Shown one piece after another: positions 1 to 26,229 of a stretch of 64,000 bases of DNA. Below the pieces are notes generated by a model that saw only the letters and a list, made by a program, of their open reading frames with translations, ran no database searches and had not been told where the DNA came from. Numbering within the stretch: position 1 is the first letter of the stretch; each line of letters starts with the position of its first letter. The stretch comes from Microbispora hainanensis. Lineage in GTDB: Bacteria; Actinomycetota; Actinomycetes; Streptosporangiales; Streptosporangiaceae. Location of the stretch: positions 1 through 64,000 of the forward strand of contig NZ_VIRM01000024.1 in the NCBI RefSeq assembly GCF_006874475.1. The letters run 5' to 3'. The position numbers and the translations under genes are program-made.

Positions 1-903
1 TCCCCCCGGCCGGGCGGAGACCTCGGCGACCACGCGTTCGACGAGCTCCCGCTGCTCGGCGTCGATCCGGGCGAACCGCTCGGGATCGGCCTCGGCGTAC
101 CGGTCGTACCAGTCGGACTCGCGGGCCCGGCGGATCTCCTCCGGCGGGCGGGTGTCGTCGCCCTTGCTGTGCGGTCCGAGGCGGTGGGTGGCGAACTCGA
201 CCACCAGCGGGGACGGCTCGGTCCGCACGGCCTCGACGAGCGGGGCGAGCGCCTGCCTGATCTCGCCGACGTCGGTGCCGGCGATGTGGTGGTGCCGCAC
301 CCCGAAGGCCGCCGCCCGGGCGGCGATCGTGCCCGCCATCTGCGCGGACGTGGGGGTCGACTGGGCGATGCCGTTGTGCTCGACCACGACGAGCAGCGGC
401 ACCCGCCAGAGGGACGCCATGTTCAGCGCCTCGTAGACGGCGCCCTCGCCCCAGGTGCCGTCTCCGATGTACGCGCAGGCGAGCGCTCCCGTGCCGGCCA
501 GTTTGAGTGCCACCCCGGTCGCCACGGGCAGGCTCTCGCCCTGCACGCCGGTCGAAAGGAACCGCTGGTGGTAGATGTGCTGGCTGCCGCCGACGCCCCC
601 GCACAGCGCGCCCTCCCGCCCCATGATCTCGGCGAGCAGGCCGTGCGGGTCGGGATGGCGGGCGAGGAAGTGGCCGTGCCCCCGGTGGTTGCTGAAGACG
701 AAGTCGTCGTCGCGGAGCAGGGACGACACCGTGACCGGGATGTACTCCTGCCCGAGACAGGTGTGGGTGGTGCCGCTCAGCACGCCCTGCTCGAACAGGC
801 GGAGCAGGGCGCGTTCGAAGTGCCGGATGAGCAGGAGTGAGCGGAGGTCCACGTCGTTCAGGGCATGCCCCGGGCTCCGGGACGGTGCAGCGGTGACGAT
901 CAC
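1..903 (-). CDS. TPP-dependent dehydrogenase E1 component, alpha subunit (3' end beyond window)
   Basis: This is the alpha subunit of a pyruvate/acetoin/2-oxoacid dehydrogenase-type E1, which decarboxylates a 2-oxoacid on thiamine diphosphate and passes the acyl group on. The window holds 301 codons and the gene runs off the left edge. The TPP signature is intact: GDGTWGEGAVYEALN followed by VVEHNGIAQ (a GDG-x-N motif), with HRGHGHFLA and LGPHSKGDDT also typical of the family. The start is GTG at 903, with AGGAG 10 nt upstream. No beta subunit is visible, so it is either further left or absent. The gene is divergent from the NRPS operon and shares its regulatory region. It could be housekeeping, or it could supply a short acyl unit to the free carrier protein at 10362; the second idea is inference only. 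Confidence 0.85.
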   Translation of the reverse strand, partial: MIVTAAPSRSPGHALNDVDLRSLLLIRHFERALLRLFEQGVLSGTTHTCLGQEYIPVTVSSLLRDDDFVFSNHRGHGHFLARHPDPHGLLAEIMGREGALCGGVGGSQHIYHQRFLSTGVQGESLPVATGVALKLAGTGALACAYIGDGTWGEGAVYEALNMASLWRVPLLVVVEHNGIAQSTPTSAQMAGTIAARAAAFGVRHHHIAGTDVGEIRQALAPLVEAVRTEPSPLVVEFATHRLGPHSKGDDTRPPEEIRRARESDWYDRYAEADPERFARIDAEQRELVERVVAEVSARPGG

Positions 904-1068: not shown

Positions 1069-1082
1069 TGGGAGCGCTCCCA
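1069..1082. promoter_or_regulatory. CebR-type operator, perfect palindrome
   Basis: The sequence TGGGAGCGCTCCCA matches, base for base, the operator known for the Streptomyces cellobiose repressor CebR and the two boxes upstream of cebE in this window. It begins 3 bp downstream of the predicted -10 box of the E1-alpha promoter, so a bound repressor would cover the transcription start. Confidence 0.85.
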
Positions 1083-1085
1083 CGG

Positions 1086-1114
1086 AGGGTAGGTGCGGTA
1101 AGAGGCCGTGTCAA
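1086..1114 (-). promoter_or_regulatory. Predicted promoter of the E1-alpha gene
   Basis: On the minus strand there is a consensus -35 TTGACA (1114-1109), a 17-bp spacer and a -10 TACCCT (1091-1086), then 3 bp and the CebR-type operator. The cebE promoter has the same arrangement (TTGACG, 18 bp, GACCCT, 3 bp, operator). Confidence 0.6.
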
Positions 1115-1227
1115 TCCCTGGCCGAACAGCAAATTTGGGAGATTACGACCGCATTGTCCGTGATCTGCGGCAATATCCTCACATTCACCGTCTTGGGGCT
1201 AATAACGGACAGAAACTTCCATGACAC

Positions 1228-1257
1228 TTGACGAACGAAAGCCGTGATCCCTAGCCT
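1228..1257 (+). promoter_or_regulatory. Predicted promoter of the NRPS operon
   Basis: On the plus strand there is a -35 TTGACG (1228-1233), an 18-bp spacer and a -10 TAGCCT (1252-1257). The second CebR-type box starts 9 bp further on, at the expected transcription start. The leader to the GTG at 1486 would be about 220 nt. Confidence 0.55.
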
Positions 1258-1266
1258 CCACTGCCG

Positions 1267-1280
1267 TGGGAGCGTTCCCA
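1267..1280. promoter_or_regulatory. CebR-type operator with one mismatch
   Basis: TGGGAGCGTTCCCA differs from the perfect box by one base (C to T at position 9). It lies just downstream of the predicted NRPS promoter, about 206 bp before the first NRPS gene and 184 bp from the perfect box on the other side of the divergent region. Confidence 0.7.
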
Positions 1281-1485
1281 CTACCGCGTCCGAAAATGGG
1301 GGTTAAGGCGCGAGCGGCAGTGGATTCCGCGCCGCGCCAGGCACCAGTATGGAAGCTTCCGGCGGTGATTCCGCCGTCGGGTCGTTGGTCCGCGTCTTCG
1401 CAACGAATCGCCGGCGTGCCGAAGCGCAGAGCGCACAGAGGAATGCCATGTTCTTAATAAAAAATTCAACAGAGGTGCCGGCGTC

Positions 1486-4400
1486 GTGACCCGGACCGGC
1501 CTCTCACCGGCGAAGCAGGCGCTGCTGGCGCAGCGGCTCAGGGCCGGGAAAGCCGCGAGGGTCACCGTGCCGCCACGCCCGGCCGCCACCCACCCGCCGC
1601 TTTCGCACGCCCAGGAGCGCCTGTGGTTCCTGGAGCAGTACGCCCCGGGCACCACCGCCTACACCGTCGCCTTCGCCGTCCGGCTGGACGGCCATGAGAT
1701 CGACGGCGAGGCTCTGGAGCGCGCGCTCGCCGAGGTGGCCCGGCGCCACGAGAGCCTGCGCACCCGGTTCGTCACCACCGACGACGGGACGCCCGAGATC
1801 GTGCTGGACGACGAGCCCCTGGTGGAGCTGCGGCTGGTGGAGCTGCGGCTGACGGAATCGGACGACCCCGCCGCCGCGCGGGAGGAGGTCCAGGCGGAGC
1901 TGGCCCGGCCGTTCGACCTGGCGACCGGCCCGCTGCTGCGGTTGCTCCTGGTCCGGCTCGGCGCCCGCGAGCACGTGCTGCTCCTGACCATGCACCACGC
2001 CGTCACCGACGGCTGGTCGTGCGACATCGTGCTGGAGGAGCTGCTCGCCCTCCACGAGGCGTACCGCACCGGCACCGACGCCGGTCTCGCCGACCCGCCC
2101 GTGCAGTACGGCGACTACGCGCTCTGGGAACGCGGACGGACCCACGAGGACGACATCCGCTACTGGCGGGAGCGGCTGGCCGGGCTGCCGCCGCTCGAAC
2201 TTCCCACCGACCTGCCGCGCCCGCCCGAGCAGGGTTCCGCGGGAGCGGCCCACGGCGTCACGCTCGACCGCGAGCTGGCTGACGCGCTCACGGCGCTGGG
2301 CGCGGCGAACGGCGCGACTCTCTACATGACGCTGCTCGCCGCCTTCCAGGTGCTCCTCGCGCGCTACTCCGGCCAGGACGACTTCGCGGTGGGATCGCCC
2401 GTGTCGGGACGCGACCTGCCGGAGCTGGAGCGGGTCGTCGGGCTCTTCATCAACTCGCTGCCGATGCGGGCCGACCTGTCCGGCGACCCGACCTTCACCG
2501 AGCTGCTCGGCCGGGTGCGCGAGACGGCGCTGGACGCGTACACGCACCAGGAGCTGCCCTTCGACCGGCTGGTCGGCGAGCTCGGCGTCGAGCGCGACGT
2601 GAGCAGGTCGCCGGTGTTCCAGGTGATGTTCGCGCTGCAGAACTACCGGTCGGCCCCACTGCGCACCCAGGGCCTGACCATGTCGGCGTACCCGTTCGAG
2701 GTGACCGCCAGCCGGTTCGACCTCGCGCTCTACCTCATGGACCAGGGCGACGGCCTCTACGGCAACATCACCTACCGCACCGAGCTGTTCCGCCCGGCCA
2801 CGATCGCGCGGATGGCGGAGTGCTTCGAGCATCTGCTCAGGTCGATCGTCGCCGATCCCGGCGCCCGGGTGTCCGACCTGGAGCTGCTCCCGGCGGCCGA
2901 GCGCGACCGCGTGCTCGCGTTCGCGGGAGCGGGCCCCGAGGCCCAGACGCCCCCGGCGGACGCGTTCGGCGGGGCGTCGTCGCTGCACGAGGCGATCGCC
3001 GCGCAGGCGGCCCGCACCCCGTCCGCGACCGCCGTCGCCTGCGGCGGCGACGCCCTCACGTACGCCGAGCTGGACGCGGCGGCCGACCGGCTCGCCCGGC
3101 GGCTGCGCGGGCTCGGCGTGGGGCGCGACGACCGTGTGGCGATCTGCCTGGAGCAGTCGGCCGGGCTCGCGGTCGCGGTGCTCGGCGTGCTCAAGGCGGG
3201 CGCGGCCTACCTGCCGCTCGACCCGGAGCACCCGCGTGGCCGGCTCGAGTTCGTCCTGGACGACGCCGCGGCGTCGATCGTCGTGACCAGCCCGGACCTG
3301 CGCGACCGGCTGCCGGACGACGTCACCGCCGTGTACCTCGGCGAGGAGGCGCCGGAGCCGGTCGATCCCTGGGAGCCCGCGACGCCGGGCGACCTCGCGT
3401 ACGTGATCTACACCTCCGGCACCACCGGGCGGCCCAAGGGCGTCGCGGTGCAGCACCACGAGGTCATGGTCTATCTCGCCGGAGTGCGCGAGCGCCTGGG
3501 CGTGGAGCCCGGCTCGTCCTTCGCCCTGCTGCAGTCGCTCGCCTTCGACTTCGGCGTCACGGTCTTCTACCTGTGCCTGATGACCGGCGGCACGCTGCAC
3601 CTGGTGCCCTCGCGCACCGCCGGTCCCGAGCTGGCGGAGATCTTCCGGCGGACCGGGATCGACTACCTCAAGATCACGCCGTCGCATCTGGCGGCGCTGC
3701 TCGCCGACGCCGGGCCCGGCGACCTGCTGCCCAGGAAGCTGCTGCTCCTGGGCGGCGAGGCGGCCCCGCGCGGCTGGGCGGCCGAGCTCGCGGCGCTGGG
3801 CCGCTGCCGGGTCGTCAACCACTACGGGCCGACCGAGGCCACCGTGGGCGTGACCACCTACGACGTCGCCCGGCTGCCCGCTCCCGACGGCCCGGCCGAG
3901 GCGAGCGTGAGCCTGCCGATCGGCTCGCCGCTGCCCGGGGCGCGGGCGTACGTGCTGGACGAGCGGCTGCGGCCGGTGCCCGCCGGAGTGCCGGGGGAGA
4001 TCTACCTCGGCGGCGAGCGGCTGGCCCGCGGCTACCTGAACCGGCCGGCCCTGACCGCCGACCGGTTCCTGCCCGACCCGTACGGCCCGCCCGGGGCGCG
4101 CATGTACCGCACCGGCGACCTCGGCCGCTGGTCCGGCACGGGCGACCTGGAGTTCCTCGGCCGCCGCGACCTCCAGGTGAAGATCCGCGGCTATCGGGTC
4201 GAGCTCGGCGAGGTCGAGTCGGTGCTGGCCGACCATCCGGACGTCGCCCAGGCCGTGGCCGAGCCGCGCGGCGAGCAGCTCGTCGCCTACCTCGTCCCCG
4301 CCGTGGACGGCGCGCGGCCGGATACCGCGGACGTGCGCGCGTGGCTGGCCGACCGGCTGCCCGCGTACATGGTCCCCTCGCGGTACGCCTGGCTCGACGA

Positions 4401-7194
4401 GCTGCCGCTCAAGTCGCACGGCAAGGTGGACCGCTCGCGGCTGCCCGAGCCGGAGGCGGACGTCGCGGCGGCCGAATACGTCGCTCCGGCGCCCGGCCCC
4501 GAGGAGGACGTGGCCCGCGTCTGGGCGGAGGTGCTGGACGTCGAGCGCGTGGGGGCGCTCGACGACTTCTTCGCCCTGGGCGGCCACTCGCTGCTCGCGA
4601 TGCGGGTCATCGCCCGGCTGCGCAAGGCGCATCCGGACCGGCGGATCACGGTGCTCGACGTGTTCAAGCACCGCACCGTCCGCGAGCTGGCCCGGCTGCT
4701 CACGGCCGAGGGGGACGTGCCGCGGTCGCTGCTGCACCGGCTCACCCCCGCCAGGGCCGCCACCACCACCCTGGTGTGCGTGCCGTACGGCGGGGGCAGC
4801 GCCGTGGTCTACCAGCCGCTCGCGGACGCGCTGCCGGACGACTGGGCGCTCTACTCGGTCGCCGTGCCCGGCCACGAGCTGGGGGAGGAGGCCCGGCCGT
4901 TCGACGAGGTCGTCGTCGACTGCGTGGCCGAGATCTCCGAGATCCTGGACAGGAACGGCGGCTCGCTCGTGCTGTACGGCCACTGCGGCCTCGGCGTCAT
5001 GCTGTCCTCCGGGATCGCCCGGAGGCTGGAGGCGGACGGCCGCACCGTGGACGCGTTGTATCTCGGCGGGGTGTTCCCCTTCGCCCGGCCGGGCCGCGGC
5101 CTGAACTGGCTCGGGTCCTTCTTCGACCGCCTCACCAGCGACCAGCAGCGGGTCAACGCCCTGACCGCGGCCGGGCTCGACGTGGAGGAGCTGGGCCGGG
5201 AACAGGTCAAACTCATCGTGCGCAACCGCCGCGAAGGCACCCGCGCCGCCGAGCGCTACTTCACCCAGATCTTCGAGGAGGGCGGCGGCCCGGCGCTGCG
5301 CGCGCCGGTGATCGCCGTTGTCGGCGAACGCGACCCGGCGGCCGAGTTCTACCAGGAACGTTACAAGGAGTGGCACTGCCTGTCAGAGGAGACGGCGTGC
5401 GTCGTCCTCGACGAGGCCGGCCACTTCTTCCTGCGCTACCGCAACGAGGAGCTCGCCGAGATCGTCACCGGCATCCACCACGCGCTCGCCTCGGGGCGTA
5501 CGGAGGGGATGGAGCGGGACGACAGCCGCACCTGGTGGCTGCAAGGTGTCTCGCGCCGCTCCGCCGAGGCGGGGGCCGGGACGGGCACGGCCGAGGGGGC
5601 CGCGGCGCAGGAGGCTGCCGGCGGTGTGGACGGTGCCGACAATGTGGATGGTGCCGGCGGTGTGGACGGTGCGGTGGAGACGCGGGTGCGGGTCGGCCCG
5701 CCGCCCAGCATGCGGCGCTTCCTCGTCGTCGCGGCCGGGCAGCTCGTCTCGATGACCGGGTCCGCGCTGACCGAGTTCGCCATCCCGCTGTGGATCTATC
5801 TCACCACCGGGTCGCTCGCCAGGTTCGCGCTGTTCTCCGTGCTCGGCCTGCTGCCCGGCATGCTCGTGGCCCCGCTGGCCGGCGCCATCGTCGACCGGTT
5901 CGACCGGCGCAAGGTCATGGTCGCCGGGGACGCCGCCGCCGGCGGCACCCAGCTCATGCTTGGACTGCTGCTGTGGACCGGCAACCTCCAGATCTGGCAC
6001 ATCTATCCGCTGCTGGTCTGCCTGTCCGTCGCGCTCACCTTCCAACGGCTCGCGTACGGCTCGGCGATCCCGCAGCTCGTGCCGAAACGGTTCCTCGGGC
6101 ACGCCAACGGCGTCGTCCAGATGGCCACCGGCACCGCGCAGCTCATCGTGCCGCTGATCGCGGTCGGGCTGATGGCGGCGATCGGGCTGGAGGGCATCCT
6201 CGTCATCGACGTGGCCAGCTACGTCGTCGCCACGCTGACCGTCGCGCTGATCCGTTTCCCGGCGACGATGGCCTGGAAGCGGCGCGAGAGCGTGCTCGCC
6301 GAGATGCTGGGCGGGATCCGCCACTCCTGGGGCAACCGGGGCTTCCGCGCGATGCTGTTCTACTTCGCGGTGCTGAACATCTTCCTGTCCCCGCTGTTCA
6401 TGATGATCTCGCCGCTGGTGCTGTCGTTCGGCACGCTGGCCGAGGTCGGCCGGGTGTCGTTCGCGGGCGGGCTCGGCGCCTTCCTCGGCGGCCTGGCCAT
6501 GGCCGCGTGGGGCGGGCCGCGCCGCAGGCGCCTGCTCGGCGTGCTGCTGTCGACGCTCGCCCTGTCGGTGTTCTGCCTGCTGACCGGGCTGCGCCCCGAC
6601 CTGTTCCTCATCGCGGTCGGCGCGTTCGGCATGTCGCTGTGCCTCACCCTGCTGAACGGCGTCTACGCCACGATCATCCAGGTCAAGGTGCCGCAGCGGT
6701 TCCACGGCCGGGTCATCGCGCTGAACACGCTGATCGCCTGGTCCACCCTGCCGATCGGATTCGGCCTGGTCGCCCCGTACGGCGCGCAGGTGTTCGAGCC
6801 GCTGCTCGCGCCGGACGGGCCGCTCGCGAACACGGCGGGCGTTCTGCTCGGCACCGGCGCCGGCCGCGGCATCGGCTTCATGTACGCCTGCTTCGGGGTG
6901 GCGATCGCGGTCATCGCGCTGGTCGCGCTGCGGATCCGGGTGCTGCGCCGGTTCGACGTCGAGGTGCCCGACGCCCTGCCGGACGACATCGTCGGCTACC
7001 AGGCGCTGACCGAACGCATCGCGGCGGCCCGTACGGACGTCAAGACGGACGCCCGGACAGGTGACACACGGACAGGTGACGCCCGGACAGGTGACACACG
7101 GACAGGTGACACACGGACAGGTGACACACGGACAGGTGGCACACGGACAGGCGACACGCGGGCGGCACGCGAGCCGGAGAAGGAGCACGCATGA
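1486..7194 (+). CDS. NRPS C-A-PCP-TE module fused to a C-terminal MFS exporter
   Basis: A 1902-residue protein with five parts. (1) A short N-terminal helix and a condensation domain to about residue 480, active site HHAVTDG at 170-176. (2) An adenylation domain at about 500-1005, with YTSGTTGRPKG, NHYGPTEATVG and the A10 lysine in SHGKVDR; the pocket reads D-F-T-K-L-G-H-V-G-K, closest to Asp/Asn codes, and His322 favours Asp. (3) A carrier domain with its phosphopantetheine Ser at 1035 (LGGHSLL). (4) A thioesterase at about 1085-1320 whose nucleophile elbow is GHCGLG, so Cys1167 replaces the usual Ser. (5) After a Gly/Asp-rich linker, a complete MFS_3/EntS-like transporter from about 1409 to 1850. 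The frame is unbroken. It looks like the terminating module although it is encoded first. Start is GTG with AGAGG upstream; its stop overlaps the next start (ATGA). Confidence 0.9.
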   Translation: MTRTGLSPAKQALLAQRLRAGKAARVTVPPRPAATHPPLSHAQERLWFLEQYAPGTTAYTVAFAVRLDGHEIDGEALERALAEVARRHESLRTRFVTTDDGTPEIVLDDEPLVELRLVELRLTESDDPAAAREEVQAELARPFDLATGPLLRLLLVRLGAREHVLLLTMHHAVTDGWSCDIVLEELLALHEAYRTGTDAGLADPPVQYGDYALWERGRTHEDDIRYWRERLAGLPPLELPTDLPRPPEQGSAGAAHGVTLDRELADALTALGAANGATLYMTLLAAFQVLLARYSGQDDFAVGSPVSGRDLPELERVVGLFINSLPMRADLSGDPTFTELLGRVRETALDAYTHQELPFDRLVGELGVERDVSRSPVFQVMFALQNYRSAPLRTQGLTMSAYPFEVTASRFDLALYLMDQGDGLYGNITYRTELFRPATIARMAECFEHLLRSIVADPGARVSDLELLPAAERDRVLAFAGAGPEAQTPPADAFGGASSLHEAIAAQAARTPSATAVACGGDALTYAELDAAADRLARRLRGLGVGRDDRVAICLEQSAGLAVAVLGVLKAGAAYLPLDPEHPRGRLEFVLDDAAASIVVTSPDLRDRLPDDVTAVYLGEEAPEPVDPWEPATPGDLAYVIYTSGTTGRPKGVAVQHHEVMVYLAGVRERLGVEPGSSFALLQSLAFDFGVTVFYLCLMTGGTLHLVPSRTAGPELAEIFRRTGIDYLKITPSHLAALLADAGPGDLLPRKLLLLGGEAAPRGWAAELAALGRCRVVNHYGPTEATVGVTTYDVARLPAPDGPAEASVSLPIGSPLPGARAYVLDERLRPVPAGVPGEIYLGGERLARGYLNRPALTADRFLPDPYGPPGARMYRTGDLGRWSGTGDLEFLGRRDLQVKIRGYRVELGEVESVLADHPDVAQAVAEPRGEQLVAYLVPAVDGARPDTADVRAWLADRLPAYMVPSRYAWLDELPLKSHGKVDRSRLPEPEADVAAAEYVAPAPGPEEDVARVWAEVLDVERVGALDDFFALGGHSLLAMRVIARLRKAHPDRRITVLDVFKHRTVRELARLLTAEGDVPRSLLHRLTPARAATTTLVCVPYGGGSAVVYQPLADALPDDWALYSVAVPGHELGEEARPFDEVVVDCVAEISEILDRNGGSLVLYGHCGLGVMLSSGIARRLEADGRTVDALYLGGVFPFARPGRGLNWLGSFFDRLTSDQQRVNALTAAGLDVEELGREQVKLIVRNRREGTRAAERYFTQIFEEGGGPALRAPVIAVVGERDPAAEFYQERYKEWHCLSEETACVVLDEAGHFFLRYRNEELAEIVTGIHHALASGRTEGMERDDSRTWWLQGVSRRSAEAGAGTGTAEGAAAQEAAGGVDGADNVDGAGGVDGAVETRVRVGPPPSMRRFLVVAAGQLVSMTGSALTEFAIPLWIYLTTGSLARFALFSVLGLLPGMLVAPLAGAIVDRFDRRKVMVAGDAAAGGTQLMLGLLLWTGNLQIWHIYPLLVCLSVALTFQRLAYGSAIPQLVPKRFLGHANGVVQMATGTAQLIVPLIAVGLMAAIGLEGILVIDVASYVVATLTVALIRFPATMAWKRRESVLAEMLGGIRHSWGNRGFRAMLFYFAVLNIFLSPLFMMISPLVLSFGTLAEVGRVSFAGGLGAFLGGLAMAAWGGPRRRRLLGVLLSTLALSVFCLLTGLRPDLFLIAVGAFGMSLCLTLLNGVYATIIQVKVPQRFHGRVIALNTLIAWSTLPIGFGLVAPYGAQVFEPLLAPDGPLANTAGVLLGTGAGRGIGFMYACFGVAIAVIALVALRIRVLRRFDVEVPDALPDDIVGYQALTERIAAARTDVKTDARTGDTRTGDARTGDTRTGDTRTGDTRTGGTRTGDTRAAREPEKEHA
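7051..7155 (+). repeat. Seven tandem copies of a 15-bp repeat encoding TRTGD-type pentapeptides
   Basis: The unit ACACGGACAGGTGAC is repeated seven times with few changes, encoding (T/A)RTG(D/G) repeats at residues 1856-1890 of the NRPS-MFS protein, after the last membrane segment. The 15-bp period keeps the frame, so copy-number changes would only alter tail length. The array ends 35 bp before the coupled start of the next gene. Confidence 0.95.
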
Positions 7195-8777
7195 CGGGGA
7201 CGCCGAGGACGACGCGTACGCCGAGGACGCCGAGGACGCGGGGCGTGCCCGCGCTCACCGTGCCGGAGCTGCTGCGGCTGCGCGCGGAGCAGGAGCCCGA
7301 GGGCGTCGCGATGATCGTCGAGGGGCACGGGACGCTCACCTTCGCCGAGTGGGACCGCAGGTCGGCGGCGCTCGCCGCCGGGCTGGCAGGCCGGGGCGTC
7401 GCCCCCGGCGACCGGGTGGCGCTGCACTTCGGCAGCCGCGACTGGATCGACTTCGCGGTGGCGTTCTTCGGGGTGCTCAAGGCGGGCGCGGTGGCCGTGC
7501 CCATGTCGGACCGGCTGGCTCCGGCCGAGCTACGCTACATGGCCGGCCACTGCGCGGCGTCGGCGGTGCTGCTCGGCCGCGATCTGACGGCGCCCGAGGG
7601 AGAGCACTGGACCGCGACCCCGGCGGAGCTGGAGGCCGGTTCCGACCCGGAGACGGCGCCGGAGACAGGGCCGGAAACGCCGCGGGTGCGGCCCGGCGAC
7701 CTGGCGCAGATCCTCTACACCTCCGGCACGACCGGGCGGCCCAAGGGGGTCGGCGCCAGCCACGCCAACCTCGCCTACGGGTGCGTCACGCAGCCCAAGC
7801 ACCGCAGGTTCGCCCACTCACGCCACCTGCTGCACGCCTTCCCGATCGGCACGAACGCCGGGCAGACCATGCTGATGAACGCGCTGGACGCGCGGCCGGC
7901 CGTGCTGACCCCGGCGAGGTTCACGCCCGGCCGGTTCGCCCGGCTGATCGAGACCTACCGCCCGGGCACCGTGTTCCTGGTGCCGTCCATGGCGATCGAG
8001 CTGCTCGACGCCGGGCTGCACGAGCGGCACGACATGTCCAGCGTGGTGCTGCTCGGGTCGGCGGCGGCCGCGCTTCCCCCCGCCCTGTCGGAGCGGCTGT
8101 CGGCGGCCTTCCCGAACGCGACCGTGACGAACTACTACACGTCCACCGAGGCCGCCCCCGCCCAGACGATCATGATTTACGACCGTACGCGGCCCGCCGC
8201 CCTGGGGCGGCCGGCGTTCGGGGGCTCGCTGCGCATCACGGACGAGGAGGGCAACCCGCTCCCGCCCGGGGAGACCGGCGAGGTGTGGATGCGGTCGCCC
8301 ACCGCCACCCGGTCCTACTACGGCGACGCCGAGGCCAGCGCCCGGTCGTTCCGGGACGGCTGGGTGCGCATGGGCGACGTCGGATACGTGGACGCCGACG
8401 GCTACCTCTACCTCGTCGACCGGGAGAGCGACGTGGTGAAGAGCGGCGCGTTCAAGGTGTCCACGCTCCAGGTGGAGGCCGCGCTTCACGAGCACCCGGG
8501 GATCGCCGAGGCGGCCGTGTTCGGGCTCCCGCATCCGGTGCTGGGCTCCGTGCTCGGCGCCGCGATCGTGCCCAGGACGGCGGCACAGCCGGAGAGCCCC
8601 GGGCTGTCCGAGAGTGAGGTGCGCGCCTTCCTGATGGACCGGCTGGCCTGGCACGAGCTGCCCGAACGGGTCCTCGTGGTCGACAGCCTGCCCAGGAACC
8701 AGTCAGGCAAGGTCATCAAGAAGGAGCTGCCCGCGCTGCTGGGCGGCTCCGTGAGCAGCACGACGGAAGGCGAGTGA
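7191..8777 (+). CDS. Free-standing AMP-dependent acyl-CoA/acyl-carrier ligase
   Basis: A 528-residue ANL-superfamily enzyme. It shows the P-loop-like YTSGTTGRPKG, the adenylate-binding YYTSTEAAP, the hinge region (GDVGYVDADGYLYLVDRESD) and the catalytic C-terminal lysine in NQSGKVIKKE. Its closest resemblance is to fatty/aryl acyl-CoA ligases rather than to NRPS A domains, and it has no carrier domain of its own. It probably activates a carboxylic acid and loads it on CoA or on a carrier protein encoded downstream (10362 or the C-PCP at 8779). The start codon overlaps the NRPS-MFS stop (ATGA), implying translational coupling. The N-terminal 15 residues are rich in TPRT repeats, so a later start is possible. 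The substrate cannot be read from sequence. Confidence 0.85.
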   Translation: MTGTPRTTRTPRTPRTRGVPALTVPELLRLRAEQEPEGVAMIVEGHGTLTFAEWDRRSAALAAGLAGRGVAPGDRVALHFGSRDWIDFAVAFFGVLKAGAVAVPMSDRLAPAELRYMAGHCAASAVLLGRDLTAPEGEHWTATPAELEAGSDPETAPETGPETPRVRPGDLAQILYTSGTTGRPKGVGASHANLAYGCVTQPKHRRFAHSRHLLHAFPIGTNAGQTMLMNALDARPAVLTPARFTPGRFARLIETYRPGTVFLVPSMAIELLDAGLHERHDMSSVVLLGSAAAALPPALSERLSAAFPNATVTNYYTSTEAAPAQTIMIYDRTRPAALGRPAFGGSLRITDEEGNPLPPGETGEVWMRSPTATRSYYGDAEASARSFRDGWVRMGDVGYVDADGYLYLVDRESDVVKSGAFKVSTLQVEAALHEHPGIAEAAVFGLPHPVLGSVLGAAIVPRTAAQPESPGLSESEVRAFLMDRLAWHELPERVLVVDSLPRNQSGKVIKKELPALLGGSVSSTTEGE

Positions 8778-8778
8778 G

Positions 8779-10362
8779 ATGTCACCGACACTCATCGGCG
8801 AGGGGGAGCAGGCCTCCCTCGCACAGCACGGCATGTGGATAACGGAACGGATGGGCTGCGGGGGCCGGGTGTACCACATGCCGCTGGCCATCCGCCTCGA
8901 CGGCCCCCTCGACGTCGACCGGCTGCTGGCCGCGTGCCACGACGTCGTCCGCGCGCATCCCCAGCTGACCGCGGCCCTGGCGGAGCGGGACGGCGAGGTG
9001 CGCCTCGTGCCCGCCGCCGTGCCGCCGCCGATCGGCTTCGAGGACGCCTCCGGGTTCGAGGACGCGGGATATGAGGCCGGTGAGCTGGTCGACCGCGAGA
9101 CGTCGCTCGCCCTGGACCTGGGCACCGGGCCGGCCGCCCGGTTCACGGTGTTCCGGCTCGCGCCGGAGCGGCACCTGCTCGTCTTCGTCGCCCACCACGC
9201 CGTCTTCGACGGCATGTCGAAGGACATCCTGGTGCGCGACCTGGCCGCCGCGTACGCCGGGCGGCCGGTGTCCGCCCTCCCCCTGACGCACGGCGAGATC
9301 GCCGAGCGGGAGAACGCCCGGGTGGCCGAGCTGCTCGGCGAGGCCGCCGAGTTCTGGCGCGGCCGCTGGAACGACCGGCAGGACCTGCGGCTGCCGGGGC
9401 TGTCCGGGGTCTCGGTCCGCGCCGCGGCCGGCGAGGCCGTCGACTTCGCGCTGCCTTCCGATCTCGCCGTCGCCGCCGACAAGCTGGGCGTCACCCGGTT
9501 CGAGCTGGTGCTCGCCGCCGTGCACACCCTGCTCACGGCGTACGGCAACGAGGACGCGGCCGTGGCCGTCGACCTGTCCACCAGGACCGAGGAGACGCGG
9601 GGACACATCGGCCTGTTCGTGAACGAGCTGCCGGTGCCCGCCCCCACGCCCTCCGGGAGGTTCGCCGACTTCGCCCGCACCGTACGCGACGAGCTGCGGG
9701 CCACCTACCGGTTCCGGCAGGTGCCGCTCGCGCGTGCCGTCGGCGGCGTGAGCCCGCGCACCGCGCTGACGCCGGTGTCGGTCAGCTACCGCAGGCGTGA
9801 CGCCTCGACGCCGGAGTTCCCCGGCGTCGAGGCGTCGGTGGACTGGATGGCGTTCAACCAGGCGGTGCGCGGCACGCTGCACCTGCAGGTGGTGGACGCG
9901 CCGGACGGCGTCGCGGCCCGGCTGCAGTTCAACCCGCTCATGTTGAGCCGCTCCGGCTGCGAGAGCGTCGCCGGGCACCTGCTCGCGCTGCTGCGCGCGG
10001 TGGCCGCCGCCCCGGACGCCGACGTGGCCGACCTGCCGCTGCCGTCCCCGGTGGTCGCCAGTGCGGTCGAGTCGTCCTCCGGCCGGGCCGGGGAGCCGTC
10101 CGCCTCGGCGCGGGGCGGTGCGGCGGACGCCGTGCCGTACGTCGCGGAGGTGGGCGAGATCTGGCGCGAGGTGCTCGGCATGCCGGAGATCGGCCCGGAC
10201 GAAGACCTGTTCGACCTCGGCGGGCACTCGCTGTCGATAACCCAGATCATCGCGAAGGTGCGCGAGCGCATGGACGTGGAGCTGTCCTTCGACGTGTTCT
10301 TCGACGACCCGACGATCAACGGGATCGCGGCGGAGGTCGCCCGGCTGCGGGAGGAGGCGTGA
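8779..10362 (+). CDS. NRPS condensation-carrier didomain protein (C-PCP)
   Basis: A 527-residue protein. The condensation domain spans about residues 10-420 with active site HHAVFDG (from residue 139), followed by a carrier domain whose Ser484 (LGGHSLS) takes phosphopantetheine. There is no adenylation domain, so the carrier must be charged in trans, perhaps by the ligase at 7191 or another A domain. The N-terminus begins directly with the C-domain core. The start lies one base after the preceding TGA, and the TGA of this gene overlaps the ATG of the next by one base. Dissociated C-PCP units of this kind are known from pyrrolamide (congocidine-type) assembly lines; that similarity is architectural only. 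Confidence 0.88.
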   Translation: MSPTLIGEGEQASLAQHGMWITERMGCGGRVYHMPLAIRLDGPLDVDRLLAACHDVVRAHPQLTAALAERDGEVRLVPAAVPPPIGFEDASGFEDAGYEAGELVDRETSLALDLGTGPAARFTVFRLAPERHLLVFVAHHAVFDGMSKDILVRDLAAAYAGRPVSALPLTHGEIAERENARVAELLGEAAEFWRGRWNDRQDLRLPGLSGVSVRAAAGEAVDFALPSDLAVAADKLGVTRFELVLAAVHTLLTAYGNEDAAVAVDLSTRTEETRGHIGLFVNELPVPAPTPSGRFADFARTVRDELRATYRFRQVPLARAVGGVSPRTALTPVSVSYRRRDASTPEFPGVEASVDWMAFNQAVRGTLHLQVVDAPDGVAARLQFNPLMLSRSGCESVAGHLLALLRAVAAAPDADVADLPLPSPVVASAVESSSGRAGEPSASARGGAADAVPYVAEVGEIWREVLGMPEIGPDEDLFDLGGHSLSITQIIAKVRERMDVELSFDVFFDDPTINGIAAEVARLREEA

Positions 10363-10592
10363 TGCGGGAGCGCGTGGCCGAACTGGTGGCGAAGGCGAGC
10401 GGCGGCGACCTGGCCGTCGCCGACATCCTGGCGGCGGAGTGCAGCCTGCCCGCGCTCGGCCTCACCTCGATCGCCTACCTCCGGCTGATCGACCTGCTGG
10501 AGACCGAGTTCGACTGTGACGTCGACCTGGACGGCGGCCACCTCGACACGCTCGACGGCCTGGTCGAGCACATCGCGGGGCAGCGGAAGTGA
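10362..10592 (+). CDS. Free-standing acyl/peptidyl carrier protein
   Basis: A 76-residue PP-binding protein. The attachment serine is Ser36 in LGLTSIAYLRL, followed by helix II/III (LLETEFDCDVDL). The acidic composition fits an acyl carrier. ATG at 10362 is preferred over the GTG at 10359 because GGAGG lies 6 nt upstream. It overlaps its neighbours on both sides (TGATG before, GTGA after). It is probably the carrier for the acid activated by the ligase at 7191, or for a unit made by the E1-type enzyme; the partner cannot be decided from sequence. Confidence 0.88.
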   Translation: MRERVAELVAKASGGDLAVADILAAECSLPALGLTSIAYLRLIDLLETEFDCDVDLDGGHLDTLDGLVEHIAGQRK

Positions 10593-12454
10593 CCGCGGGC
10601 CCGCCGGCGCAGGTCACCGGTCTCACGCCACTGCCGCCGCGCACCGTGGAGTTCCGCGGCGCGCGGGGCGGGCAGGCCGCGCTGACCTGGGGCCAGCAGG
10701 GGATCTGGCGCTCCACGCAGTGGCTGGACGACGGCGACCCCTACTTCAACCTGGCCTGGACCCTGCCGGTGACCGGCGCGGCCGGTCTGGACGCCGTGCT
10801 GCGCGCCGTCGGCCGTCTCGTCGAGCGGCACGAGACGCTGCGCACGGCGTTCGTCCGCGTCCGGGACGACGCCGGGAACGACGCCGGGGAAGACCGCGAG
10901 GACACGATCCAGAGGGTGAGCCGCGAGGGCCGGCTCACCGTGGGCGTGTACGAGGCGGCGGCCAAGCCGATGAGCGCGGCCAAGGAGCTGGCCGCCGAGC
11001 TGGCCGCGACCGGGTTCGACTACGCGGCCGAGCTGCCGATCCGGTGCGCGGTCGTCTGCCGGCGGGGCCGGCCGCGTGCGCTGGCGCTCGCGTTGTCCCA
11101 TCTCGCGCTCGACGGCTGGTCGCTGAACATGGTGGCCGCGGAGTGGCCGCGGCTCGTGGCCGGGGAGGACCTGCCCGGCCCGAGCCGGCAGCCGCTCGAC
11201 CAGGCGGCCTTCGAACGGTCGGACCCGCCGCCCGGCGGCCAGGCGCTGCGGCGCTGGCGGACCGGTCTGGCGTCCGCCCCGCGTTCGATGTTCGACTTCC
11301 CGGTGCGGGAGCCCGAGGAGCCGCGCTTCGTCCGGCACGGGATGGACTCCCCGGCGGCGGCCGTCGCCGCCGAGGCGCTCGCCGCCCGGCACGACGTGAC
11401 GACCTCCAGCGTGCTCACGGTCGCGAGCGCCGCGCTGCTGGCCGCCGTCACCGGGCACCGTACGGCGGCGCTGCAGCTCATCGTGTCGAACCGGCACCAC
11501 CCGGGCATGGAGGCGATGGCCGGGCCCGCCGCCCAGGACGGGCTGTGCGTCATCGAGCTGGGCGCCGGCACGTTCGCCGACGCGCTGCGGCACGGGCACC
11601 GCAGGACCATGGCGACCTACCGGAACGGGCACTACGACCCCGCGCTCGTGCACGCCGCGTGGGACGCGGAGGCGTGGAGCCGCGGCGCCGACATCGACCT
11701 GGACGCGTTCTTCAACGACGTCAGGCAGGGGGGCCGCTGGCAGGGCCTGCCGCCGGTCGATCCCGGGGACGCCGGGGCGCTCGCCGCGCTGCGGGAGCGG
11801 ACCCGCACGTTCTTCGTCGGCGCCTACTCGAAGGTCAAGGCGAGGATCTTCTTCGCCACCGGCCTGTCCCCGTCCACCTGCGAGTTCTACGTGCTGGTGG
11901 ACACGGCCTTCCTGCCCGGCGACGTCGCCCCGCGGATGCTCACCGGCCTGGAGGAGCTGCTGGTCCGGGCGGTCTCCGAGGACGTGCCGCTGGACCAGGT
12001 CGCGAAGGTCGCGGGCCTGGACCCGGTGGCGCGCCCCTCCGGATGGACGGTGATCGGCCACGACTGGGTGGACGTGCCGGCGACCGAGGCGCTGCTGCGC
12101 CGCGCCTGCGGGACCGACCTGGCCGTGGTCGTGGTCGAGCACAAGGCGCAGGACGCCGGAGATGCGACCAGAGACAGCACCGGAGATGGGGCCGGCGACA
12201 AGGGCGGCGACAGGGACGCGCCCCGGCTGACGGGGTATCTCGTGGCCCGTCCCGGGCTGGACACGCCCGAGGCCGTCCACGCCGCCGTGATGCGCGCCGC
12301 GGCCGGCCGGACCGACGTGCTCGCCCCCCACCACTACGTCCTGTGCGCCGAGCCGCCGGCCGGCCCCGCGGGCTGGCCCGCCTGTCCCCGCCTGATCGAG
12401 GGCGGCGGCCGGGGCCCCGACATCAGCAATGACCGTCTTGGGAAGGTGACATGA
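10589..12454 (+). CDS. Free-standing condensation-domain protein with a C-terminal A-subdomain-like tail
   Basis: A 621-residue protein. An N-terminal condensation-type fold (about residues 25-470) carries SHLALDG at 170-176 in place of HHxxxDG: the first His is Ser, but the second, catalytic His171 and the DG are kept. Residues about 490-621 resemble the small C-terminal subdomain of an adenylation domain (LTGYLVARPGLDTPEAVH, HHYVLCAEPP) but lack the A10 lysine, and they are interrupted by a Gly/Asp linker. The GTG start overlaps the carrier-protein stop. It may join the acyl-carrier to the first amino acid; the tail looks like a relic or a docking surface. The C-domain call is firm, the tail less so. 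Confidence 0.8.
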   Translation: MTAGPPAQVTGLTPLPPRTVEFRGARGGQAALTWGQQGIWRSTQWLDDGDPYFNLAWTLPVTGAAGLDAVLRAVGRLVERHETLRTAFVRVRDDAGNDAGEDREDTIQRVSREGRLTVGVYEAAAKPMSAAKELAAELAATGFDYAAELPIRCAVVCRRGRPRALALALSHLALDGWSLNMVAAEWPRLVAGEDLPGPSRQPLDQAAFERSDPPPGGQALRRWRTGLASAPRSMFDFPVREPEEPRFVRHGMDSPAAAVAAEALAARHDVTTSSVLTVASAALLAAVTGHRTAALQLIVSNRHHPGMEAMAGPAAQDGLCVIELGAGTFADALRHGHRRTMATYRNGHYDPALVHAAWDAEAWSRGADIDLDAFFNDVRQGGRWQGLPPVDPGDAGALAALRERTRTFFVGAYSKVKARIFFATGLSPSTCEFYVLVDTAFLPGDVAPRMLTGLEELLVRAVSEDVPLDQVAKVAGLDPVARPSGWTVIGHDWVDVPATEALLRRACGTDLAVVVVEHKAQDAGDATRDSTGDGAGDKGGDRDAPRLTGYLVARPGLDTPEAVHAAVMRAAAGRTDVLAPHHYVLCAEPPAGPAGWPACPRLIEGGGRGPDISNDRLGKVT

Positions 12455-12705
12455 CCGACTCCCCGATGCTCGTGGTCGTCAACGACGAGGAGCAGTACTC
12501 CGTATGGTGGAGCGACCGCGAACCGCCCGCCGGGTGGCGGGCCACCGGTTTCGCGGGCACCCGGCAGGAATGCCTCGACCACATCGAGACCGTGTGGACC
12601 GACATGCGGCCGCGGAGCGTACGCGACCCGGAGACGCGGAGCGTACGCGACCCGGACACGCTGACCGTGCGCGACCCGGCGACGTCGAGCTCCCGGGACA
12701 GATGA
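12451..12705 (+). CDS. MbtH-like NRPS accessory protein
   Basis: An 84-residue MbtH-family protein. It has the family signature NDEEQYSVWW, then PAGWRATG, CLDHIETVWTDMRPRS, including the conserved tryptophans. MbtH proteins bind and activate A domains, here probably those of the A-PCP and C-A-PCP proteins. Normal members end near residue 65-70; this one carries an extra tail of three 8-residue repeats. Start and stop overlap both neighbours (ATGA). Confidence 0.95.
   Translation: MTDSPMLVVVNDEEQYSVWWSDREPPAGWRATGFAGTRQECLDHIETVWTDMRPRSVRDPETRSVRDPDTLTVRDPATSSSRDR
12616..12687 (+). repeat. Three tandem 24-bp repeats in the MbtH tail
   Basis: Three copies of a 24-bp unit encode SVRDPETR, SVRDPDTL and TVRDPATS just after the MbtH core. 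This looks like a recent expansion of the C-terminus rather than part of the fold. Confidence 0.85.
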
Positions 12706-14117
12706 CCAGCGCGGAGCGCCGCGCCGCGCTGATCGAGAAGCTGGCCGGGCTGCCCCCCGAGCGGCGGGCGGCGCTGCTGCGCTCCCTCGGGGGCGCCCAG
12801 CGGGACCCCGGCGGACAGGAGTGGCCGCTGTCGCCGGGACAGGAGCGCCTGTGGTTCCTCAGCCGCTTCGACCCCGGCGACACCAGTTACAACACGCCCT
12901 GGTGCATGCGGCTGCGCGGGCCGCTCGACGTGGCCGCGCTGACCGCGGCGTTCACCCGGATCGTGGCGCGGCACGAGGTGCTGCGCACCCGCTTCCGGCT
13001 GCGCGGGGACGCACCCGTGCAGGTCGTGCTGCCGCCGGGGCCGGTGCCGGTGGAGCGGCTCGCGGTGTCCGGCGAGACGGACCTCGACCGGGTGCTGAAG
13101 GAGTTCGTCGAGCGCCCGTTCGACCTGGAGAACGCGCCTCCCCTGCGGGTCGGCCTGGCCGAGGCGGGCGAGGACGACGCGGTCGTGTGCATCGTCCTGC
13201 ACCACATCGTGATGGACGGCTGGTCGCTCGACGTGCTCCTGCGCGAGCTCACGGAGTGCTACGCCGCCGGACGCGAGGGACGTGAGCCCGAGCTGCCGGA
13301 CCTGCCCACGCAGTATCCCCGCTTCGCGGTGCAGGAGAGGCGGCGCGACCACACGGAGGGCCTGGCGCACTGGACGAGCCGCCTGGCCGGCGCCCCCGCG
13401 CTGGACCTTCCGGCCGACCGTCCCCGCCCCGCCCGCTGGTCGGGGCGCGGCGGACGCGAGGAGCTGCTCCTGCCGCCGGACGAGATCACGCCGCTGGAGA
13501 AGGTGGCCAGGAAGCGGCGCTGCACGTCCTTCATGGCCCTGGTCGCCGCCTACCAGGCCACCCTCGCCCTGGCGTCGGGGCAGACCGACTTCTGCGTCGG
13601 CGTGCCGGTGGCCGGCCGGTCGCGCAGCGAGCTGACGCCGCTGATCGGCTACTTCGGCAACACGATGGTGCTGCGTGCCGACCTGTCCGGCGACCCGTCG
13701 TTCCACGAGCTGCTCGACCGGGTGCGGGAGGCGACCCTGGCCGGGATGCGGCACGCGGAGGTGCCGTTCGAGCACGTGCTGGCCGCGCTGCGCGTCCCCC
13801 GCGACATCAGCAGGCCGCCGCTGTGCCAGGCCATGTTCAACCTGCACAACCTGCCCAAGGACGATCTGCTGGGGACCCGCATGGCCGACCTCGACCGGGA
13901 GGTCTACGTGGTCCCGCCCAGCCACACCAAGTCGGAGGTCTCGATGGACCTGTGGCGGGGCCCGGAAGGGCTGGGCGGCGTCTTCGACTACAGCAGCGAT
14001 CTGTTCACGCCCGCGGCCGCGCGCCGCCTCCTCGGCGGCTTCGCCGAGGTCGTACGGCGTGCCGGGGCCGACCCTGACCTCCCGCTGTCCGCGCTGGGCG
14101 GCCCGTTCCCGAAGTGA
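12702..14117 (+). CDS. Free-standing NRPS condensation protein
   Basis: A 471-residue protein with a single condensation domain. A helical N-terminal segment (TSAERRAALIEKLAGLPPERR) is followed by the LSPGQERLWFL motif and the active site HHIVMDG at 167-173. The sequence ends without a carrier or A domain. ATG at 12702 overlaps the mbtH stop; an upstream in-frame extension exists but would overlap mbtH and encodes low-complexity residues. It lies directly before the A-PCP gene, so it probably supplies the missing C domain of that module. Confidence 0.9.
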   Translation: MTSAERRAALIEKLAGLPPERRAALLRSLGGAQRDPGGQEWPLSPGQERLWFLSRFDPGDTSYNTPWCMRLRGPLDVAALTAAFTRIVARHEVLRTRFRLRGDAPVQVVLPPGPVPVERLAVSGETDLDRVLKEFVERPFDLENAPPLRVGLAEAGEDDAVVCIVLHHIVMDGWSLDVLLRELTECYAAGREGREPELPDLPTQYPRFAVQERRRDHTEGLAHWTSRLAGAPALDLPADRPRPARWSGRGGREELLLPPDEITPLEKVARKRRCTSFMALVAAYQATLALASGQTDFCVGVPVAGRSRSELTPLIGYFGNTMVLRADLSGDPSFHELLDRVREATLAGMRHAEVPFEHVLAALRVPRDISRPPLCQAMFNLHNLPKDDLLGTRMADLDREVYVVPPSHTKSEVSMDLWRGPEGLGGVFDYSSDLFTPAAARRLLGGFAEVVRRAGADPDLPLSALGGPFPK

Positions 14118-14129
14118 AAGGTGTGGAAA

Positions 14130-16055
14130 GTGAGTGACGCGGTGAGCGGCGTGACCTTCCCTGATACGGCGCTCGCGCTGATCCGCCGGTGGCGTGACGC
14201 GAGCCCCGACGCGGTCGCGGTGAGCGGCGCCGACGGCGTGCTGACCTATCGGGAGCTGCACGACAGGGTCGACCGGCTGGCCGCGCTGCTGCGCGCCCGC
14301 GGCGTCGGCCCCGAGGTTCCGGTGGGCCTGTGCCTGGAGCGCTGCCCCGGCATGGTCGTCGCCCTGCTCGCCGTGTGGCGGGCCGGCGGCGCCTACGTGC
14401 CGCTCGACCCGGGCTTCCCCGAGGACCGGCTCCGGTTCATGCGGGAGGACGCGGGCATCCGGCTCGTGCTGGCCGGCCGGGGCGTCGAGTCGCGGCTGCT
14501 CGACGGCGTCCCCGACGTCGTCGAGCTCTCGCAGGACGGCGTTCCCGTCGCGGGCGGCGCGTCCGGCGGCGGTCAGGTGCCGGCCGACGGCCCGGTCGGT
14601 GACGCGATGGGCGACCTGGCCTACCTCATGTACACCTCCGGTTCCACCGGCAGGCCCAAGGGGGTCGCCGTCCCGCACGGCGCGGTGGTCAACCTGCTGG
14701 AGTCCTTCGCCTCCCTGCTGGAGCTCACCCCGCGGGACGCCTGGCTGGCGGTCACCACGCTGTCGTTCGACATCTCGGTGCTGGAGCTCCTGCTGCCGCT
14801 GACCTGCGGCGCACGGGTCGTGGTCGCGTCCGGGCACGAGACGGCGGACGGCCGCGCCCTGCGGGCGCGTGCCGTGACCGAGGCCGTCACGATCATGCAG
14901 GCGACCCCGGCGAGCTGGCGCATCCTGCTCGAATCCGGCGGAGTCCCCGAGAACATCGCGACCCGGCTGTGCGGGGGAGAGGCGCTGCCCCGCGACCTCG
15001 CCGACGCCCTCCTCGACGGCGGCGCCCGGCTCTGGAACGTGTACGGCCCGACCGAGACGACGGTCTGGTCGACGGCCGGGCGCGTCAGCCCGTCGCCCGC
15101 CCCCGTCGACCTGGGCGGGCCCATCGGCAACACGACCGTGCACATCCTCGGCCCCGACGGCCGTCCCGTGCCGCCCGGCGAGGCCGGCGAGCTGCACATC
15201 GGCGGCGCCGGCCTGGCCAGGGGATACCGCGGCATGCCGGGCCAGACGGCCGCCAGGTTCCTGCCCGACCCGTTCTCCGGCGTGCCGGGGGCCCGCCTGT
15301 ACGCCACGGGCGACCTCGCCAGGATCGAGAACGGCAGGCTCTGCTACCTCGGCCGGGCCGACCAGCAGGTGAAGGTGCGCGGGTTCCGGATCGAGCTCGG
15401 CGAGATCGAGAGCGTGCTGCGGGCCGCGCCCGAGGTGGCCGACGCCGCCGTCGGCGTCTGCGACGGCCCCGACGGACTGCCGCGCCTGGTCGCCTACGTC
15501 GTGCGCGCGGCCGGAGAGGCCGGAGAGCCGGGGGAGCCCGGGGATGCAGGCCTGTGGCCGTCGCTGCGTGACCGGCTGCGCCGCGACGTGCCCGAATACA
15601 TGGTGCCCGCGCACCTCGTGGTGCTGGACGCCCTGCCGCTCACTCCCAACGGCAAGCTCGACCGCAAATCCCTGCCCGTGCCCGAGTGGACCCGGGCGCG
15701 GAGCCGGCCCTACCGGCAACCGTCCACCGCTCTGGAGGAGGACCTCGCGGCGATGTGGGGGGAGGTGCTCGGCATCGCCGAGCCGGTCGGCGTCGACGAC
15801 GACTTCTTCGAGCTGGGCGGGCACTCGCTGACGGCCACCCAGATCATCGCCAGGATCCAGGCGCGCTTCGCGACCAACGTGCCGATCGTGGTGTTGTTCG
15901 AGAACCCCACGGTGGCCGAGCTGGCGTCGGCGATGGACCGGCTCGACGACGACGACCTGGACCTCGCCGACATCGCCGCGCTTCGCGACGAGCTCGACGG
16001 CCTCAGCGCCGAGGACCTGGCGGCCGTGCTCGACGAGATGGCGTCGGACAAATGA
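14130..16055 (+). CDS. NRPS adenylation-carrier protein (A-PCP), predicted Gly
   Basis: A 641-residue protein. The A domain covers about residues 15-530 (YTSGSTGRPKG, NVYGPTETTVW, catalytic Lys in PNGKLDR) and the carrier domain has Ser566 (LGGHSLT). My alignment of the pocket gives D-I-L-Q-L-G-V-V-W-K, which matches the glycine code D-I-L-Q-L-G-L-I-W-K except at two conservative positions. GTG at 14130 is preferred because AAAGG lies 8 nt upstream; GTG at 14121 is also in frame. It is flanked by a free C protein upstream and overlaps the next gene (ATGA). An acidic tail follows the carrier. Confidence 0.88.
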   Translation: MSDAVSGVTFPDTALALIRRWRDASPDAVAVSGADGVLTYRELHDRVDRLAALLRARGVGPEVPVGLCLERCPGMVVALLAVWRAGGAYVPLDPGFPEDRLRFMREDAGIRLVLAGRGVESRLLDGVPDVVELSQDGVPVAGGASGGGQVPADGPVGDAMGDLAYLMYTSGSTGRPKGVAVPHGAVVNLLESFASLLELTPRDAWLAVTTLSFDISVLELLLPLTCGARVVVASGHETADGRALRARAVTEAVTIMQATPASWRILLESGGVPENIATRLCGGEALPRDLADALLDGGARLWNVYGPTETTVWSTAGRVSPSPAPVDLGGPIGNTTVHILGPDGRPVPPGEAGELHIGGAGLARGYRGMPGQTAARFLPDPFSGVPGARLYATGDLARIENGRLCYLGRADQQVKVRGFRIELGEIESVLRAAPEVADAAVGVCDGPDGLPRLVAYVVRAAGEAGEPGEPGDAGLWPSLRDRLRRDVPEYMVPAHLVVLDALPLTPNGKLDRKSLPVPEWTRARSRPYRQPSTALEEDLAAMWGEVLGIAEPVGVDDDFFELGGHSLTATQIIARIQARFATNVPIVVLFENPTVAELASAMDRLDDDDLDLADIAALRDELDGLSAEDLAAVLDEMASDK

Positions 16056-19183: not shown

Positions 19184-19237
19184 TGTCGTCCGGGCGTCCG
19201 CCTCGTGTCGTCCGGGCGTCCGCCTCGTGTCGTCCGG
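19184..19237. repeat. 22-bp tandem repeat, 2.5 copies
   Basis: Units at 19184-19205 and 19206-19227 are identical, and a 10-bp partial copy follows to 19237. They lie between the last NRPS stop and the SDR remnant. Non-coding. Confidence 0.9.
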
Positions 19238-19741
19238 TCAGGAGGCCGGCGCGTCCAGGTAGTCGGCGTGCTCCAGGTCGTCGAGCAGCGCCGGGTGGGT
19301 GGGCGACCAGCCCCGCTTTCGGCCACGCCGTGCGGCACGCTGCCCGCGGGCGCCTTCTCCAGCGCGAGACGGAACAGGACGGCCGCGTCGAGCCGGTGCA
19401 CCGCGGGCCACCGGTTGGCGCCGTCTCCGACGTACGCCGAGACGCCGGTCTTCCGCGCGGTGGCGATGAGCATGGGGACGAAACCGTGGGCGCGGGGACC
19501 GTGGACGGTGGGGGCGAGGCGGACCACGCTCGCGCGCGCTCCCCGGGCGGCGAAGTTCAGGCAGGCCCGTTCACCCGCGATGCGGAAGGCCGCGATCCCG
19601 GCCGTGTCGGGCTCGTCCTTCTCGGTGGTCTCCCGTCCCGCGGGCATGACCAGGGTGCCGGAGGTGACGACGAACGGCTTGCCCGAATGTTCCAGCGGCC
19701 GGCCGAGCGTCTCGATCGCGGTCCGGTCGCGTCTCATCATG
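19238..19741 (-). pseudogene. Remnant of an SDR/NAD-dependent epimerase-like oxidoreductase
   Basis: The minus-strand frame reads like the middle of an extended SDR protein (VVTSGTLVMPAG, GERACLNFAARG, VVRLAPTVHG, YVGDGANRWPAVHRLDAA). It lacks the whole N-terminal Rossmann GxxGxxG half. After HGVAES the frame jumps to the normal C-terminal end (GWSPTHPALLDDLEHADY) in another frame, consistent with loss of roughly 50-80 residues. So there are two deletions. It abuts the truncated TetR gene on the opposite strand. Confidence 0.75.
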
Positions 19742-26215: not shown

Positions 26216-26229
26216 TGGGAGCGCTCCCA
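26216..26229. promoter_or_regulatory. CebR operator 1 of cebE, perfect palindrome
   Basis: TGGGAGCGCTCCCA, 122 bp before the cebE start and 3 bp downstream of the predicted -10 box. It is identical to the box upstream of E1-alpha, including the bases joining it to the -10. Confidence 0.9.

Follow-up and report, generated by a model that had tools for sequence, protein, structure and literature searches.

CebR very probably represses two divergent promoters in Microbispora, one reading into an NRPS operon and the other into an operon that begins with the E1-alpha gene of a 2-oxo acid dehydrogenase, by way of two operators from which cellobiose would release it. Such control had been proposed in an initial annotation and is strongly supported by comparison between genomes, in which the presence, spacing and perfection of the boxes prove conserved from genus to genus, and clusters without cebR nearby still carry a box. 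The binding of CebR, its release by cellobiose and the order of induction are each steps that we infer. CebR, encoded nearby, would bind a perfect operator just downstream of the E1-alpha -10 element and a weaker operator just downstream of the NRPS -10 element, so that both operons would be blocked without cellobiose. Import of cellobiose by CebEFG would then release CebR, and expression of both the E1/E2/GH1 genes and the NRPS genes, among them the one fused to an exporter, would be switched on together with that of the cellulases. The arrangement suggests that the switch for cellulose digestion is wired to peptide clusters, the peptides being made when the organism feeds on plant cellulose. 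The window, the stretch of 64,000 nucleotides that was analysed, is the start (base 1) of the 121-kb contig C157 of an 8.7-Mb Microbispora genome (G000), and its features are collected in Table 1.

Table 1. Genes, CebR boxes and promoter-like elements of the window
Feature	Position	Strand	Evidence and remarks
E1-alpha (2-oxo acid dehydrogenase E1 component)	1-903	-	Pfam E1_dh 1.5e-43; truncated by contig edge
CebR box, perfect	1069-1082	.	TGGGAGCGCTCCCA, 0 mismatches; putative operator of E1-alpha promoter
E1-alpha promoter, predicted	1086-1114	-	TTGACA (1114-1109), 17 nt, TACCCT (1091-1086), 3 nt, then box
Invariant 27-bp block	1199-1225	.	Directly upstream of NRPS -35; 12 Microbispora aligned
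NRPS promoter, predicted	1228-1257	+	TTGACG (1228-1233), 18 nt, TAGCCT (1252-1257), 9 nt, then box
CebR box, one mismatch	1267-1280	.	TGGGAGCGTTCCCA; putative operator of NRPS promoter
13-codon mini-ORF	1448-1489	+	MFLIKNSTEVPAS; its TGA overlaps the NRPS start codon; 12/12 Microbispora
NRPS C-A-T-TE with C-terminal MFS transporter domain (NRPS1)	1486-7194	+	Pfam
Stand-alone adenylation/acyl-ligase enzyme (A2)	7191-8777	+	Pfam; best matches of solved structure: acyl- and aryl-CoA/AMP ligases
C-T protein	8779-10362	+	Pfam
Condensation-like protein	10589-12454	+	Pfam Condensation over residues 30-313 of 621, N-terminal part only
Condensation-domain protein	12504-14117	+	Pfam
A-T protein	14121-16055	+	Pfam
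C-A-T protein, last of seven NRPS genes	16052-19165	+	Pfam
cebR (LacI-family repressor)	20319-21338	-	Pfam; HTH segment AGVGRGTVSRVINGS identical to PDB 5ysz
bglC-type GH1 beta-glucosidase	21367-22803	-	Pfam Glyco_hydro_1 2e-163
cebG, putative	about 22800-23690		Between the bglC-type GH1 and cebF-type genes
cebF-type ABC permease	23687-24661	-	Pfam BPD_transp_1
cebE-type solute-binding protein	24747-26093	-	Pfam SBP_bac_1
CebR box, perfect, cebE promoter	26216-26229	.	Pattern scan of window
Second perfect CebR box upstream of cebE	26336-26349	.	120 bp from the first

The genes of the E1 operon that follow E1-alpha, coding for E1-beta, a lipoyl E2 and a GH1 beta-glucosidase, are found at the end of contig C190 (L066), where they are 94%, 86% and 96% identical, respectively, to their counterparts in the Microbispora genome G006, in which the operon is complete in the order E1-alpha, E1-beta, E2 with lipoyl domain and GH1 beta-glucosidase. 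A further box lies to the left of this operon, ahead of genes for an aldose 1-epimerase and an APH/fructosamine-kinase-like protein (L014 9695 in G006; L066 4001 in G000). On the other side of the locus, the cebR gene had been placed about 1.2 kb past the NRPS operon, and the measured distance is 1.15 kb. The frame at 19205-20191 between them has a TetR C-terminal domain as its sole match and is possibly a decayed gene. An orthologue of CebR is encoded in all 34 genomes searched (77-95% identity; next-best LacI at most 59%). The HTH of the Microbispora protein is of the CelR type, its segment being identical to that of 5ysz, which we take to be the CelR of Thermobifida fusca, the record itself naming the LacI family only.

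The perfect and the one-mismatch box that had been read at the divergent promoter were both recovered by the scan of the window, which thus holds the 14-bp palindrome, at up to one mismatch, at a promoter. Four boxes of this quality occur in the window against 0.02 expected, a count reached by none of 100 shuffles. At up to three mismatches the 11 boxes found, against 7.6 expected, are not above chance (13 of 100 shuffles reach 11), and the weight of the argument accordingly rests only on the near-perfect boxes. The spacing of the two boxes ahead of cebE recurs in eight other Microbispora cluster stretches that reach cebE and in G002, and is 130 bp in G045. Over the whole genome there are 15 perfect and five one-mismatch box places, while the reversed pattern gives four. 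The same box stands at the start of the GH6, GH48 and GH9 cellulase genes, and several other copies are found near genes that have no obvious link to cellulose (EAL/GGDEF, histidine-kinase-like, FtsK and protein kinase).

Each box was also said to lie directly downstream of a -35/-10 pair. Such promoter-like pairs can be read at both boxes, and across 24 sequences (12 from Microbispora, G019 and L116-L126) the E1-alpha elements are TTGACA in 23 and TAC(C/G)CT in all 24, and the NRPS elements TTGACG in 22 and TAGCCT in all 24. A strict sigma-70 scan found 0 promoters and thus lists neither pair; both are supported, despite this, because they are conserved over the 24 sequences. The resemblance noted between the E1-alpha promoter-operator joint and that of cebE (xACCCT followed by 3 bp) is true in the window, but within Microbispora TACCCT occurs in only four of 12 sequences and TACGCT in the other eight.

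Fifteen Microbispora genomes (G000-G014) were searched, 12 of which have a readable intergenic region for the window cluster. Those left out are G014, in which the contig begins inside the gene, G005, which has no close NRPS1/A2 match, and G002, in which a different NRPS occupies the same place and a box pair is present there too. The initial annotation had named the absence of the boxes from orthologous loci as an observation that would speak against the proposal; when this comparison was run, both boxes were present in all 12 orthologues, 198 bp apart from start to start (199 bp in G012). All 28 box columns are invariant, the E1-alpha box being perfect throughout, against 47% of the 516 other intergenic columns. 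The distance between the boxes is steady, whereas the flanking distances range over 78-166 and 218-234 bp. Looping of the DNA between the operators was considered, but with spacing classes of 176, 184, 198, 207 and 229 bp the case for helical phasing reaches only P about 0.05, and the -10 to -10 distance looks, by hand count, about as constant as the inter-box distance, so that looping is kept as a lead and not as a conclusion.

Orthologous clusters outside the genus were sought among 297 genomes with the A2 ligase, not with the box, and 25 loci in 24 other genomes were found at A2 identities of at least 68%, a line chosen after the data had been seen, at the gap between 68% and 66%. A box with at most one mismatch is present at the cluster promoter in 24 of these 25 loci. 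In 23 of them no more than about 400 bp separate the box from the first cluster gene matched, and in L128 the box is about 0.8 kb ahead of that gene. The exception, L141, is a second copy in G042 with no NRPS1 beside A2; its E1a/A2 promoter has no box, and one occurs only before the GH1 gene. Eight clusters with less similar A2 proteins (61-66%), a selection from many lower-identity places, have no box at up to two mismatches (0/8), and three of them hold E1a/E1b homologues. Likewise, none of five paralogous TE-MFS NRPS loci has a box. When the palindrome was shuffled 40 times, the shuffled patterns were found in 0.55 of 39 loci on average (7 at most) against 39/39 for the real box, a count that in longer loci also includes boxes of ceb promoters. 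The cluster box persists without an adjacent cebR, as in G019, where cebR is on another contig; in seven genera (g1, g32, g91, g68, g4, g29 and g81) cebR lies within 13 kb of the cluster. Box pairs of this spacing are not confined to NRPS loci: 51 of the 297 genomes hold one (none with the reversed control), including one at a ceb operon (L130). Twenty stretches were taken from the matches to the pair pattern, and six of these, without a cluster A2 match, were excluded from the count of clusters (L127, L129, L130, L133, L134 and L135); one of these, L129, encodes a related C protein and has a box pair. A search of named genomes with one protein of the cluster returned two distant records and nine from Microbispora, including M. 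rosea, M. siamensis and M. bryophytorum. The named-genome matches L057 (39% identity) and L058 (31%) have no box at up to one mismatch in the 21 kb analysed.

A second NRPS cluster of the same genome also carries the box. A perfect copy (C208:203039; L068 4001, L072) separates a TauD-family gene from another NRPS of the C-A-T-TE-MFS type; the MFS parts of this NRPS and of the one in the window share 50% identity. This box is perfect in 14/14 Microbispora loci and in both loci of another genus, 16 of 16 genomes in all. The next gene codes for a PP-binding (carrier-protein-domain) protein, which a family search found in the same 16 of 297 genomes and whose front part looks, in our estimation, FkbH-like. 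This cluster is unlinked to cebR, which is on a different contig. For a third NRPS of the TE-MFS type in this genome (C186:168835), the nearest box listed on its contig is about 132 kb away.

The two operators of the window cluster differ in a consistent manner. Among 37 box pairs, 30 have TGGGAGCGTTCCCA on the NRPS side, five TGGGAACGCTCCCA, one TGGGAGCGATCCCA and one a perfect box, so that this box is imperfect in 36 of 37; on the opposite side, 33 boxes are perfect and four read CGGGAGCGCTCCCA. In L143 the NRPS-side box alone is present, as TGGGAGCGTTCCCA. The two common forms, TGGGAGCGTTCCCA and TGGGAACGCTCCCA, share the altered half-site TGGGAAC and differ in which of the two halves it occupies. 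Some loci were first met by a pair pattern that requires one box to be perfect and tolerates changes in the other at positions 6 and 9 alone; the A2 search also recovered every one of the 25 outside loci, and both searches allow a perfect NRPS-side box. The imperfect box may be a weaker operator, a reading based on the thaxtomin case of Streptomyces scabiei, in which imperfect boxes of the thaxtomin genes have been argued to allow a response to cellotriose before that of the cellulases (PMC5332605). Tentatively, and at somewhat less than even confidence, there may be a cellulose-to-peptide switch common to the whole family, in which the CebR regulon of Microbispora includes two separate NRPS clusters, with the NRPS operator of the window cluster kept weak by the half-site change and its partner kept perfect at a near-fixed distance, and CebR, possibly bridging both, may let peptide synthesis start at a lower level of cello-oligosaccharide than the E1 operon and the cellulases.

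The box pair could also be controlled by a LacI-family repressor other than CebR that prefers the same operator. LacI HTH matches number 38 in the genome, and on contig C217 one LacI-family gene is directly preceded by a perfect box (C217:20554; L069 6513), so that another LacI could share CebR sites. The HTH of this protein (AGVSPATASRVLTG), the one of the 38 that was compared with CebR, is unlike the CebR segment (AGVGRGTVSRVING) that is identical to 5ysz, and the two proteins are 44% identical. A single sequence is common to the boxes of the cellulase, cebE and E1-alpha promoters, and together with the closeness of cebR to the cluster in seven genera this makes control by another repressor quite improbable. 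Control by CebR itself would still leave room for the view that the E1-alpha operon serves sugar catabolism, from cellobiose through glucose to acetyl-CoA, with the NRPS-side box merely reflecting a shared promoter region. The GH1 beta-glucosidase gene in the E1 operon fits this view, as does the aldose epimerase gene preceded by the next box leftward. The NRPS, however, has a box and a promoter of its own, and in eight of the 25 outside loci (L128, L131, L136-L139, L152 and L153) the promoter of the NRPS cluster carries the pair in a stretch that lacks any E1a match; in L132, E1a lies some 2 kb from the pair and has its own box. The second NRPS cluster is boxed opposite a TauD gene, not E1, and E1a/E1b adjoin A2-type ligases in unboxed clusters too (L144, L148 and L150). 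The sugar-catabolism view is hence unlikely, and the company that E1a/E1b keep with such ligases in other clusters points to a biosynthetic role, for example in making an acyl unit.

Least probable, with only a very small chance of being right, is that the boxes are functionless and have been kept by shared ancestry alone. Intergenic DNA is similar overall within Microbispora, as the share of invariant columns outside the boxes indicates, and a boxless block of 27 bp is equally invariant. Against this, the boxes persist in other genera despite much changed surroundings, the identical half-site change is found in either half, and boxes are lacking from the related clusters that were sampled. 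Repression by CebR thus continues to be the preferred explanation.

The comparison drawn in the initial annotation with thaxtomin synthesis in S. scabiei, for a cluster judged not to be thaxtomin-like, has proved an apt working analogy for a different cluster: no Pfam match to nitric-oxide-synthase/P450 nitration genes or to a TxtR-type (AraC) regulator is found among the seven NRPS-operon proteins and the scanned E1-operon proteins. As far as the available portions of the thaxtomin papers describe it (PMC5332605, PMC12527672, PMC8914351), both systems have CebR-type boxes at an NRPS cluster, with imperfect boxes at the biosynthetic genes and mostly perfect ones at the cellulase genes, but the genes and the host family are unlike those of the Microbispora cluster. 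The Microbispora boxes sit right at two divergent promoters, with the mismatch at position 6 or 9, whereas those of thaxtomin lie far upstream (-786/-899) or inside txtB, with the mismatch at position 1. In contrast to thaxtomin, the Microbispora-type cluster is linked to cebR in several genera, its boxes are kept across many genera, and a second NRPS cluster is boxed, perfectly. The CelR/CebR cellulase regulon of T. fusca and other actinobacteria, in the parts of its descriptions at hand (PMC3377646, PMC4697097), has the same 14-bp palindrome at cellulase genes and the ceb operon, which Microbispora extends to NRPS promoters. For secondary metabolism, the accessible text of a 2012 survey gives a single CelR site, located within the coding region of a PKS (Amir_4019; PMC3377646), that of a 2025 survey has thaxtomin as the only entry in its table of clusters with known CebR sites (PMC12527672), and that of a further study reports cryptic clusters of S. 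scabiei that are up in a cebR mutant without predicted boxes (PMC8914351). No prior report of CebR boxes at the Microbispora NRPS locus was found in the open-access literature searched. On these comparisons of sequence, the locus is most likely a separate, deeply conserved case of CebR-NRPS control, with paired asymmetric operators and a second boxed cluster. CebR boxes would then be an old and strictly kept feature of NRPS clusters in a soil- and plant-associated actinobacterial family, and the box would predict which clusters respond. Cellobiose or cellotriose in the medium, or deletion of cebR, would give a direct route to waking silent clusters, and the loci would offer a natural operator set for testing how operator strength orders feeding against chemical output.

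The invariant block upstream of the NRPS -35 element exceeds either box in length and contains no box; it may be an activator site. The mini-ORF that overlaps the NRPS start codon contains a TTA codon in nine of the 12 Microbispora sequences, and a 13-codon frame was seen by eye at the same place in L116-L119. Adenylation signatures read by hand, which do not enter the argument above, tentatively suggest that the first adenylation domain (A1), like that of the second cluster, may be Asp/Asn-like, A6 Gly-like, and A7 specific for a basic residue.
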